Of a DNA stretch of 64,000 nucleotides, positions 19,704-59,440 are shown piece by piece (position 1 is the first letter of the stretch; the number at the start of each line of letters is the position of its first letter). The stretch is from the NCBI RefSeq assembly GCF_001436555.1, contig NZ_AYZR01000009.1:233593-297592 (forward strand). The letters run 5' to 3'. Source of the DNA: Lentilactobacillus senioris DSM 24302 = JCM 17472 (GTDB lineage Bacteria > Bacillota > Bacilli > Lactobacillales > Lactobacillaceae). Made by a program: the position numbers and the translations under genes. The notes below the pieces were generated by a model. That model saw only the letters and a program-made list of their open reading frames with translations. It had not been told where the DNA came from and did no database searches.

Positions 19704-19745
19704 TATAATACTCAACCCGAATTATTCTTGAGCATTAAAAACAGC

Positions 19746-19798
19746 AAAAAACAATTAATAGTCCGATCTATAAAAGGTCACTATTAATTGTTTTTTTT
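19746..19798. terminator. Terminator after the muramidase-NlpC operon
   Basis: Perfect 12-bp stem ACAATTAATAGT/ACTATTAATTGT followed by eight T on the plus strand. Confidence 0.85.
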
Positions 19799-19862
19799 GT
19801 TAAGTAAAGAAAAAATAAGTTGAGCATAGCAAATTTCTATAGTGTTGCATCTTCTGAAATTA

Positions 19863-19914: not shown

Positions 19915-20094
19915 AAAAAAGGCGTGCCTAAAGGCACGCCTTTTTGCGGCATTCAACTAAGAATGGACTAGTGAAGCTCCACAACCTCAACTAATCAGAC
20001 ACCTACAATACGGTAGATATGTGTCCCGCTCGAAAAATCACTTAAATCGCTTGCGCGAACAACCGAAGTTGCGTGATAGCTCGACTCATCGCAT
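19915..20094 (-). ncRNA. Candidate stand-alone structured RNA, about 180 nt (class not recognised; 6S-like size)
   Basis: A near-consensus extended -10 promoter on the minus strand would start a transcript near 20094. It would end at a GC-rich terminator (19916-19945). In between there is no ORF but dense structure: CAAC-UUCG-GUUG and UCGC-GCAA-GCGA tetraloop hairpins, a GACAC...GUGUC hairpin with an inner CUAC/GUAG helix, and long-range pairings near the ends (AGCU with AGCU, CAC with GUG, AGU with ACU). Length and end-to-end pairing recall 6S RNA, but I could not confirm the class. It is not SRP RNA, tmRNA or RNase P as far as I can see. Confidence 0.6.
19916..19945 (-). terminator. Terminator of the minus-strand RNA gene
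   Basis: AAAGGCGTGCC/GGCACGCCTTT with a four-base loop and six T following on the minus strand. Confidence 0.85.
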
Positions 20095-56702: not shown

Positions 56703-56860
56703 GAGATTAGCTGTTAGGTGAGGCTCCTATACGGAAAATGCTACTGCTCAGAAACGTCGAAAAACGCCAATGAGTCAGCTGTTCTTGTCAAATTAAGGCT
56801 TGAACTAACGTAGCTGTTATTTTATAACTACGCTGTATAGTGCTAAAACTCAACGATTGG
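56703..56860 (+). ncRNA. M-box (ykoK leader) magnesium riboswitch
   Basis: The highly conserved M-box blocks occur in order: GTTAGGTGAGGCTCCTATAC (56713-56732), CTGCTCAGAAACGTC (56744-56758) with ACGCCAATGAGTCA (56763-56776), and GCTGTATAGTGCTAAA near 56832-56847 ending ACGATTG. This RNA folds on several Mg ions and normally switches off a magnesium transporter gene. Here no transporter follows. The next ORF has 29 codons. Confidence 0.92.
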
Positions 56861-56905
56861 CTGTAATTTTTGGTGTGCAGTCAATCAAACGGCTGGACAC
56901 TTTTT
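56855..56905 (+). promoter_or_regulatory. Expression platform of the M-box (attenuator)
   Basis: Two mutually exclusive hairpins share one strand: GATTGGCTG with CAGTCAATC (antiterminator-like), and GTGTGCAG with CTGGACAC followed by TTTTT (terminator). The overlap in GTGCAGTC means only one can form, as expected of a transcription-attenuating riboswitch. Confidence 0.65.
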
Positions 56906-56939
56906 CATTTCATAAAAAAATTTTCGGAGGTGAATGTTG

Positions 56940-57029
56940 ATGACAGCTGAAGTCTATGACCCTGGATCGTCGTCTAAACATCAGTCTAGCATGGGAAAAT
57001 CAGTTGGCATTAACGTCGCTGATTTATAA
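56940..57029 (+). CDS. 29-residue ORF under M-box control
   Basis: GGAGGTG at 56926-56932 precedes an ATG at 56940 by seven bases. The frame encodes 29 residues starting MTAEVYDPGSSSKHQSS and ending NVADL. It is polar, with no membrane helix, so unlike the MgtS or MgtR small proteins. I do not recognise it, and nothing after the stop continues it in another frame. The last third lies inside the left arm and loop of a 17-bp hairpin, so translation could affect folding downstream. It may be a leader peptide, a small protein, or the stump of a lost gene. Confidence 0.5.
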   Translation: MTAEVYDPGSSSKHQSSMGKSVGINVADL

Positions 57030-57062
57030 TCATTAGAGAAGTTTCCCAATTGATTTTCCCAT
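56991..57062 (+). repeat. Long inverted repeat overlapping the 29-codon ORF
   Basis: Arms 56991-57007 and 57046-57062 pair over 17 bp with one G-U wobble. The left arm includes GGGAAAATCAGTTGG, and the 38-nt loop holds the ORF's end and stop. No T-run follows directly, so it does not look like a plain terminator. Confidence 0.7.
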
Positions 57063-57163
57063 CAACATCAAATTGTATTTTTCAATTCTGTTTTAGCTAA
57101 GCTTCTTTTAAGCGCCTTTTATTAGTCGCTGCACACTAAAGAACAATAAGTTTAATGTTTACT

Positions 57164-57435
57164 AAAGCAAAGGGAAAGTCGTTTGGGATAACTTCTCGGT
57201 GGTTTCAGGTCCTATAGGGCTGGCGCCTTGGGATCTGATCGAAAACTTCGATACGCTTCACTGGTCAGGGAACTGATTGGGGAGATTTTATTTCAACGCA
57301 ATTTAATCGATAGCCGGGTAATCACGAGGAACATACCTCTGAGAAGTAACGGAAGTGCTTCTTACACACTGACTGCCCATTATCGCTAATAAAAAATTAT
57401 AAAAGACCTGACGTTTAAGCGTCAGGTCTTTTTTT
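57164..57435 (+). ncRNA. Unrecognised structured RNA region ending in a strong terminator
   Basis: About 270 nt without an ORF. A closing stem GGG-AAA-GTC (57172-57180) pairs with GAC-TG-CCC (near 57371-57378). Inside are ATCGAA-AAC-TTCGAT, CTGATC/GGTCAG, CAGGTCC/GGGATCTG (one wobble), GAGG-AACATA-CCTC and AGAAG/CTTCT. A terminator follows at 57400-57435. This density of nested helices is far from random. It is not tmRNA, RNase P or a riboswitch class I can name. Confidence 0.5.
57400..57435 (+). terminator. Terminator of the structured RNA region
   Basis: AAGACCTGACG/CGTCAGGTCTT with a short loop and seven T. Confidence 0.85.
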
Positions 57436-57819
57436 GTGGGGTCAATTTAAATGTGATTGGTGCTTATCATAAAACGGCTTCACCCCACTACTTTTTCCGT
57501 CCAACATAAAAATGCCAAATAGCGATTTAAAAAGCAAATCGAACTATTCAGCATTTTTTCATTGGTAATCAAAAGTACCCGTGAGGTTCAACACTCTATC
57601 TAAAACGGCTTTCACCTTCAATCAGCCCCCTAGCTATAAAAAACGAGAAGTGATAGAAAATCCGTATCGAACTATCCCGTTTTCTTAGGTTAATTGTCGC
57701 TAATTCCCGAAGGCCTCAGCACTCTAATCAAAATCGGCTTTCACCTAACTTATTTCCTCCGCCTAAATAAATAACAGCAAATAGCGTCCATTTAGGCAGA
57801 GCTATTGGCTGTTATTTTC
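57436..57819 (+). repeat. Three tandem copies of a ~130-bp hairpin unit (candidate multi-copy RNA)
   Basis: Units start near 57436, 57581 and 57709. Each has a 5' stem-loop with a conserved loop of the form CACTCTATC-AAAACGG, a pyrimidine-rich linker, and a 3' terminator-like hairpin (57508-57559, 57640-57683, 57769-57819) containing a shared ATAG/CTAT helix. The 5' stem changes in both arms between copies: GTGGGGT/ACCCCAC, GTGAGG/CTTTCAC and GAAGGCC/GGCTTTC. A fourth partial loop, CACTTTATCC, overlaps the xylB stop at 57853. G-U pairs in copies 2 and 3 favour the plus strand as the RNA. Confidence 0.6.
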
Positions 57820-57856
57820 TTAGTGCTCAGAAATAAACCACGTTAGGCTTAGCACT

Positions 57857-59368
57857 TTATCCTAGATTTTCTCTTCTAAAGTTTACCAACTCATGGGTAA
57901 TTTCTTTGGTTTGGTTGTAAACCTTAGCGTAGGTTTGGTGCAATTGTTTGTATTTTTCAACGTTTTCTGGATTTGGTACAAAAACGTTAGTATATTCCAC
58001 AAATTTTTCAGTACATTCATGAATATTCTTGAACCAACCCATTCCAACAGCAGCCAACATTGCAGCTCCCATTCCAGGACCTTGTTCGTTCTTCAATGAC
58101 ACTACCTTAGTATTGAAAATATCAGCCTGAATTTGTTGCCACATTGCACTCTTGGCCCCGCCGCCAATCGCAACTACGGTATCAAATTTAGCGCCCTTTT
58201 CACGGTAAATTTCCATAATATCTTCAAATGAGAAGGTAATCCCTTCTAAGACGGCCCGGACAAAGTCACTCTTCTTGTGAATACCATCAATACCAATGAA
58301 GCTACCACGTACATCTGCATCCGCATATGGTGCCCGTTCTCCTACAATATAAGGAGCAAATAGTAACCCATTAGCTCCGACCGTAGAATCAGCCGCACTA
58401 TTAACAAAGTCGTTAAAGTCTTCATCAGCCCCGAAGGTTTTCTTAAACCAGCTTAATGAGAAACCAGCTGCTAAAGTAACCCCCATTGAATAGTAAGAGT
58501 TAGGAACGGCATGGTCTTCAAACTGAAGAACCCCATTATAGTTAGTTCGAGCATCGTCTTCAAACTTCAAGATAACACCAGAAGTACCAATACTAGATAA
58601 GACCTTATTAGGAGTATCAATACCAGCCCCTACTGCACCACAGGCGTTATCGGCCCCGCCGCCGAACGTCTTAGTAGCTGTAGAAAGCCCAGAAAACTCT
58701 GCGTATTGGGGAGTAATGTTACCAGTATCTTCGATAGATTCCACTAATGGTGGGCACATTTCGGCTGGAATTTGGAAGACGTCTAAGATTTCCTGACTCC
58801 AATCAGCCTTTTCAATATCTAGCATCACGGTCCCAGTCGCGTCAGAATAATCCATCGCTAATTTACCGGTCATCCGGTAACGCAAGTAGTCCTTTGGTAA
58901 TAGCATGGTTTTAGCCTTGGCAAAAATTTCCGGTTCGTTTTCCTTCACCCAAAGTAACTTAGGCAAAGTGAACCCTTCTAATGGTCGGTTATGGGTAATA
59001 TCAATGAATTTTTGACCCATAGCCGCCATAATTTCTTCACACTGCTTAGTAGAACGAGTATCATTCCAAAGCATTGCTGGACGAAGTACCTTGCCATTTT
59101 CATCTAGTAAAACTAAACCGTGCATTTGGCCTGAGTAACTAATTCCTTCGATTTCGTCGACACCAATGTGGTCGTTTAAGATTAATCGAACAATCGAAAC
59201 CGTCGTTGCGTAAACCCAATCTTCGGGATTTTGTTCAGCGTAACCTGGTTTGGGTTGTTGTAAATCATAGTCAACGCTTTCCTGTGCTACGATCTTTCCT
59301 TCTGGAGTGACCGCAGAAACTTTAACGGCACTGGTACCTAAATCAACGCCAAGAACATATTGAGCCAT
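57857..59368 (-). CDS. xylB: Xylulokinase
   Basis: A 503-residue FGGY-family kinase that phosphorylates D-xylulose to xylulose 5-phosphate, the substrate of phosphoketolase. The N-terminal ATP loop [14 protein letters not shown], the substrate region [14 protein letters not shown] and [10 protein letters not shown], and the C-terminal [18 protein letters not shown] are intact. The ATG at 59368 follows AGGAGGAAG. The frame begins 12 codons earlier without support. It is second in the xylAB operon. Its stop overlaps the start of a tandem repeat array rather than a simple terminator. Confidence 0.96.
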
Positions 59369-59440
59369 AATTTCTTCCTCCTGACAGAAAAGGGATTGGC
59401 TCATAGCGAACCAATCACCTTTTTTGTTTGATTAACTATC

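Follow-up and report, generated by a model that had tools for sequence, protein, structure and literature searches.

A covarying hairpin repeat anchored behind stop codons in the Lactobacillales, probably a 3′-UTR RNA element

Multi-copy small RNAs such as LhrC and the csRNAs come as several tandem structured copies and are free-standing genes. EFAR elements are variably assembled from modules, and stem-loop 'empty' sites occur; we take EFAR and Efa-1 to be the same element. In the accessible parts of the respective papers, Efa-1 of E. faecalis is described as a double hairpin of 163 bp present in 65 copies (PMC2267715), and EFAR is listed as an enterococcal miniature inverted-repeat element (MITE) (PMC3733652). 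The accessible text of PMC3049150 reports that SPRITE, BOX, and RUP of S. pneumoniae are enriched between convergent genes, that SPRITE is terminator-like and lies near gene 3′ ends, and that, apart from BOX relatives in S. suis, other streptococci almost lack the three. According to the sections available of PMC3733652, REPs are 20–40 bp long, and the GTAG REPs are palindromic repeats able to supply the stop codon of a gene. Neither the term Enterococcus nor the term EFAR occurs in the available portions of PMC2229807 and PMC10969869.

The element analyzed here resembles EFAR/Efa-1, as far as the partly accessible descriptions alone allow a comparison, in being an intergenic structured repeat of similar size in the same order, but Efa-1 consists of two adjacent stem-loops whereas our units are each predicted to form one long hairpin. 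The enterococcal branch of the family could be EFAR-related. With SPRITE, BOX, and RUP, likewise compared by partial description only, it shares the behavior of a small structured repeat; unlike them, it occurs in several families of the order, starts at the stop codon, and covaries order-wide. A palindromic repeat that supplies a stop codon is also reminiscent of the REP/BIME-RAYT system in what is accessible of its description, but REPs are much shorter, and our source genome lacks the Y1 transposase. Membership in RAYT/REP was rejected because PF01797 was absent from the source genome and from four further copy-bearing genomes (G014, G002, G001, and G009). Tandem structured copies are common to the element and LhrC/csRNA, but the element is not free-standing and is placed behind stop codons. 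In the literature searched, whose coverage lacks most subscription papers, no published description of the family was recognized, and the stop-codon anchoring in sense orientation together with the order-wide covariation is new as far as these searches show. Bacterial small repeats are usually seen as parasites of one or a few species that lie anywhere between genes, whereas this element has been kept in place, strand, and fold across much of the Lactobacillales while its arms were rewritten many times. It thereby allows a direct test of whether a dispersed repeat works as a general 3′-UTR module. It also concerns food and gut bacteria, whose 3′-end biology is little known.

The window, which is the whole stretch of 64,000 nucleotides analyzed, comes from a Lentilactobacillus genome of 1.57 Mb and carries xylB, an FGGY kinase gene (PF00370/PF02782), on the minus strand at 57857–59404. 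Among named genomes, the closest xylB product is that of L. senioris YQ005 (99% identical). The minus strand also carries a xylose isomerase-like gene; a ROK-family gene and a sugar transporter lie farther on. Beginning with the xylB stop and read on the minus strand, three units of ~129 nt follow (57859–57470), and the TAA stop itself (57859–57857) forms the opening three bases of the first unit. Counted from the stop, the units are C (57728–57859), B (57601–57726), whose pairing is degenerate, and A (57470–57598). Covariance model R1, which was built partly from these same units, scored C at 83.6 bits over 57730–57859, B at 105.4 bits, and A at 123.8 bits. According to the sequence and the folds, the inner hairpin of unit A (57508–57559) has T runs on both strands and a bulge of the form ATAG-UU-CGA...UCG-CUAT. 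Behind the array, a minus-strand spacer that contains GTGGGGT (57433–57469) leads to the native intrinsic terminator of xylB, which was found by a terminator scan and has a 13-bp stem and a T tract (57401–57432, minus strand).

The true limits of the unit were derived by aligning 13 units. In this alignment, the minus-strand unit opens with TA(A/G)AGTGCTGA and closes with GAAGCCGTTTTA, with variations. The unit is predicted to fold from foot to loop into a single long imperfect hairpin, in which a variable outer arm is followed by a near-constant middle of the kind CGG-AGCUU-CGAGCAUUAA / UUAAGCGGAA-AAGCU and a variable terminator-like inner stem. The predicted folds of typical copies have a 2×2 GA/GA loop close to the foot and a UU bulge within the inner stem. 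Compared with 200 shuffles, the minus strand gave z-scores of −6.39 for A, −5.50 for C, and −1.60 for B, and 16 of the 200 shuffles folded as well as B. The z-scores confirm units A and C; B is weak and degenerate. On the plus strand the values were −5.96 (A), −5.52 (C), and −0.77 (B). The z-score alone thus does not choose the strand.

The initial annotation had proposed three full ~130-bp units and a partial fourth in this region. Hairpin-forming repeats of ~129 bp are indeed present beyond chance, as judged by BLASTN and the covariance model, but the phase of that proposal was wrong, and its strand is the less likely one. The partial fourth unit corresponds to the 5′ end of unit C. GTGGGGT at 57436, taken as the arm pairing with ACCCCAC, lies outside the units, and the partner of ACCCCAC (57483–57489) is GTGAGGT (57581–57587); the stems of the annotation thus mostly join arms of different units. 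In its phase, units 1 and 3 folded better than shuffles on the plus strand (z −3.65 and −4.23), but unit 2 did not (z 0.27). This phase, whose units straddle the true ones, was rejected because of the result for unit 2 and because the register changes from stem to stem.

A BLASTN search of the source genome with 57433–57862 located 11 sites at E below 2e-5, counting that in the window (best non-self E 8e-55), which makes the element an interspersed repeat. By BLASTN, unit A is 96% identical over 128 bases to the copy at C8:264324–264451 of the same genome. R1 gave 34 matches up to E 1 in this genome, some copies being counted on both strands, and 19 of them reached E 5e-10 or better; at E 0.01, it matched 26 of 60 genomes, the source included. 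A second covariance model, R2, built from 118 copies, matched 181 of 396 Lactobacillaceae genomes (the source included) in 21 of 38 genera at E 1e-5. Homologues were therefore found in the Lactobacillaceae by the covariance-model search that the initial annotation had called for, and they keep the pairing. In the order sample, R2 matched 22 of 245 genomes, of which ten belong to the Lactobacillaceae and 12 to four other families, some with several copies. Copies per genome in the family and order surveys are those among the best 9 or 14 candidates scored. Three of 299 genomes matched in the class sample (the source, one of the same order, and one from another family of the class); this sample includes unmatched Lactobacillales genomes, the share of other orders in it is not given, and it serves as a rough specificity control only. 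Rfam release 15 had no family that matched the element above the gathering cut-off in the window and ten copy-bearing loci, and its E-value mode returned only sub-threshold matches. A possible degenerate further copy lies on the plus strand of the window at 19711–19834, with an R1 core match at 19739–19806 (E 2.9e-4) and arms recognized by eye; it adjoins a Ref68 sRNA match (19974–20093, minus strand).

Units occur singly or head to tail, and array length differs between close genomes: behind asnS there is one unit in the source genome versus four in G014, and behind xylB three units versus one in L. senioris YQ005, which by eye is a fusion of the C and A halves. Plasmids and phages were rejected as main carriers of the Lactobacillaceae type, as plasmid searches matched three Pediococcus records only and the phage search gave no match. 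An enterococcal-type query matched 74 plasmid records, and many of the 60 listed represent one deacetylase gene with its 3′ end. Copies of E. faecium type are also carried by 72 GenBank 'Listeria phage' records (e.g., OR848435.1 and OR846818.1), in 22 of the 72 at ≥95% identity, and by the Klebsiella plasmid records CP069367–CP069369 at 72–91% identity, which suggests enterococcal contamination or mislabeling.

For quantitative analysis, 220 copies were grouped into the sets A2 (90 copies), A3 (43 copies from G026), A5 (51 copies), and A6 (36 copies from other families). The copies of A5 and A6 were picked from best-scoring lists; for A5, six of 57 matches were dropped, each overlapping a better match on the opposite strand, and A6 includes two weak partial matches. 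ORFs and terminators were called with simple scripts of our own. For 116 of the 220 copies, the start lies no more than 10 nt from the stop codon of a same-strand ORF. The commonest start offset is −3 (45 copies), where the TAA or TAG of the element itself serves as the stop. The remaining copies lie behind another unit (46), in neither position (39), or near a stop or undecided (19), and only 3/220 show the reverse arrangement, in which the copy ends no more than 10 nt from the stop of an ORF on the other strand. In A6, only 8 of the 36 copies are anchored at a stop. Annotated genes give the same kind of picture. In E. faecium pCBA713402, the annotated asnS ends exactly where the match starts (L230:2501), and four units, counted by eye, are followed by a strong terminator. 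A polysaccharide deacetylase gene ends at L232:2003 with the match beginning at 2001. In Pediococcus damnosus, where the initial 27 bases of the query remained unaligned, the match starts at L233:2001 behind an ABC gene that ends at 1985. On a plasmid of Lactiplantibacillus plantarum, 24 bases separate the end of the nearest annotated gene (1480) from the match (1504).

The eight preceding genes scanned in the source genome are mixed and have no common pathway. Those passing NCBI cut-offs encode AsnS, a dipeptidase of family C69, a hydrolase of the proline iminopeptidase family, and an aggregation-promoting factor, and those assigned by Pfam encode cyclopropane fatty acid synthase-like, alpha/beta hydrolase, release-factor-like, and GW-domain proteins. 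The gene at L009:4122–5324, which precedes a four-unit array in this genome, has matches to several release-factor-like Pfam families, baeRF 3 and 6 among them, and its product also matches a ribosome hibernation factor model below the cut-off. An asnS gene precedes the element in both E. faecium and Lentilactobacillus. The two proteins are only 37% identical, so a shared old site is doubtful. At the strict limit applied, the asnS search found only 3 of 24 genomes.

Covariation is very strong: the arms vary between copies yet remain paired. In A2 (88 distinct sequences among the 90 copies, 13 of which built the first model), standard pairs occupy 92.4% of cells versus 63.4% after shuffling, and 40 of 42 pairs show two-sided changes. 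The covariation score was 0.70 versus 0.19 for shuffled alignments and ≤0.13 for controls with slid partners. Having been fitted to the structure, the alignment leans towards it; the margin is nonetheless large. The family alignment thus bears out the compensatory arm changes, and with them the selection on RNA structure, that the initial annotation had read from the window. In G026, the 43 copies have 33 distinct pairs of outer arms, 23 of which are perfectly complementary, and the outer stem comprises 585 Watson–Crick, 6 G–U, 2 A–C, and 8 other pairs. Wobble intermediates are therefore nearly absent, which also fits a correction of palindromes by template switching at the DNA level. The element lets the origin of such compensatory change, almost without wobble intermediates, be tested.

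If the gene-sense RNA alone mattered, G–U pairs would be tolerated and A–C pairs would not. On the gene-sense strand, the ratio of G–U to A–C was 230:61 in A2, 48:32 in A3, 139:11 in A5, and 79:20 in A6. The gene-sense strand folded better than its complement in 202 of the 220 copies (89/90, 27/43, 51/51, and 35/36, respectively), G026 being the weak case. This strand was assigned by the covariance model, and it coincides with the strand of the preceding gene, information that the model did not have. The excess of G–U over A–C on the gene-sense strand, which is the minus strand at xylB, makes the plus strand the less likely functional one.

Terminator-like hairpins (a GC-containing stem with a T tract) were found inside units in the sense direction in 67/90 copies of A2, 35/43 of A3, 42/51 of A5, and 16/36 of A6, compared with shuffled means of 17.4, 3.4, 11.6, and 4.6. 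The terminator-like hairpin that the initial annotation had given to every unit is thus present in most units but not in every copy. In the antisense direction, the counts were 59/90, 36/43, 42/51, and 10/36. A stricter terminator scan did not list the hairpins of the three window units. A separate sense terminator within 220 nt downstream was found for 29 of 54 arrays in A2, 0 of 38 in A3, 15 of 37 in A5, and 9 of 15 in A6 (shuffled means 1.4, 0.6, 0.2, and 1.2); for these counts, antisense duplicates were removed, and copies without an upstream sense ORF or with a flank of <150 nt were excluded. In G026, the inner hairpin of the element may be the sole terminator. By eye, several copies of this genome (L094–L133) are trailed by degenerate 3′-half repeats in tandem, in which the locus-specific arm is retained.

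Occupied and empty 3′ UTRs were compared at xylB by reading five other loci by eye, from seven fetched. Apart from the fused unit of L. senioris YQ005, no unit was seen by eye behind xylB in L. kribbianus, L. laojiaonis, L. kosonis, and Limosilactobacillus kribbianus. A terminator directly follows the xylB TAA in L. kribbianus; it resembles, with the same start, the terminator downstream of the array in the window, where three units lie between.

The computations establish the structure, the strand preference, the place, and the spread across the Lactobacillales. As for function, we think that the element is probably a 3′-UTR RNA element, transcribed with the preceding gene, that would act as a terminator and 3′-end structure and would have spread as a small repeat. 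In the transcript of the preceding gene, here xylB, it would form the first part of the 3′ UTR, and its inner hairpin would halt transcription, imperfectly, in both directions. Transcripts that read through could form the whole hairpin, by which the 3′ end of the mRNA would be capped and protected, or cut by a double-strand RNase of the RNase III type. Tandem units might serve as back-up stops between convergent genes, and insertion, duplication, and recombination would account for the spread and the changes in copy number, with the pairing retained for the sake of the RNA fold. A complete stop at the inner hairpin would leave the 3′ arm untranscribed, and its covariation would then call for another cause; the covarying outer arms mean that some transcripts include the 3′ arm or that a DNA-level correction of palindromes contributes. 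Against this proposal stand the z-scores in the window, which pick no strand, the weakness of unit B, the absence of the hairpins of the units from the stricter scan, and G026, with no separate terminators, a better gene-sense fold in only 27 of 43 copies, and almost no wobble. The 39 copies found neither at a stop nor behind a unit, the low anchored fraction of A6, and the part of the model in setting the gene-sense strand also count against it. An extension of the proposal, which we regard as rather improbable, starts from the foot of the hairpin being the stop codon or a few nucleotides away, so that the hairpin would close only once the terminating ribosome has gone. Folding might then signal that the ribosome has been released and determine what becomes of the mRNA 3′ end, the spread would be aimed at the stop codons of translated mRNAs, and the element would form an order-wide class of RNA elements coupled to translation termination.

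A different and less likely explanation, which still deserves weight, is that the element is an EFAR-like MITE whose hairpin is needed as folded DNA for movement, the sites at stop codons reflecting targeting of terminators or mere harmlessness. The classification of EFAR as a MITE in the accessible part of PMC3733652, the interspersed and tandem copies, the occupied and empty xylB sites, the array lengths that differ between close genomes, and the almost perfectly paired outer arms of G026 all suit this explanation. So does the exact 5′-end motif, which occurs 18 times in the source genome (control, 0), seven times outside listed elements; of these seven, one adjoins an element, and the two in the window are not elements. 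All eight exact 3′-end motifs, however, lie within listed elements, and no insertion sequence with both ends was therefore seen in this one genome. The lack of Y1 transposase in the copy-bearing genomes named above also speaks against movement as a MITE; PF01797, the only transposase family searched, is present in G026 and G412. A function as DNA only would not lead one to expect the sense orientation and the G–U excess, and a target duplication is not established, as there is one filled/empty comparison, at xylB, between diverged species.

RNA-based alternatives to the proposed 3′-UTR element fare less well. The initial annotation had suggested a likeness to multi-copy small RNAs, which would make the array a set of separate trans-acting small RNAs of ~130 nt on the plus strand. 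The units are multi-copy and structured, A and C fold well on that strand, and terminator-like hairpins occur on it too, but the copies lie in sense orientation behind stop codons (116/220 versus 3/220), the G–U excess is on the opposite strand, and a consensus scan, the only promoter search made, found no plus-strand promoter inside the array, for any unit. The linkers, for which binding to ribosome binding sites had been suggested, belong to the hairpin and are conserved in it: TTTCCTCCG, one such 'linker', is complementary to the conserved gene-strand CGGAGGAAATAA, in which GAAATAA pairs with TTATTTC. The 8-bp pseudoknot proposed for unit C is not conserved either, being reduced to 6 bp in one and absent from the other of two further C-type copies of the source genome inspected by eye. 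We consider independent plus-strand small RNAs highly implausible. It also seems quite unlikely that processing of the 3′ UTR, by RNase III for instance, yields stable hairpin RNAs that have their own functions. Long conserved paired units, several per gene, and the conserved middle motifs in the 3′ UTR would agree with such processing, but these RNAs would be without a known target.

On the plus strand of the window, 56703–57432 contains an M-box riboswitch (RF00380) with no long ORF directly behind it. For 56900–57400, Rfam gave no match up to E 0.1. A conserved ORF of 29 codons lies behind the M-box at 56941–57030, and L. kribbianus has a related peptide of 28 codons. Behind the M-box, conserved non-coding sequence of ~370 nt also extends as far as a terminator, and the M-box stretch of 745 bases is 95% identical to that of L. 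senioris YQ005 and 75% identical to that of L. kribbianus.
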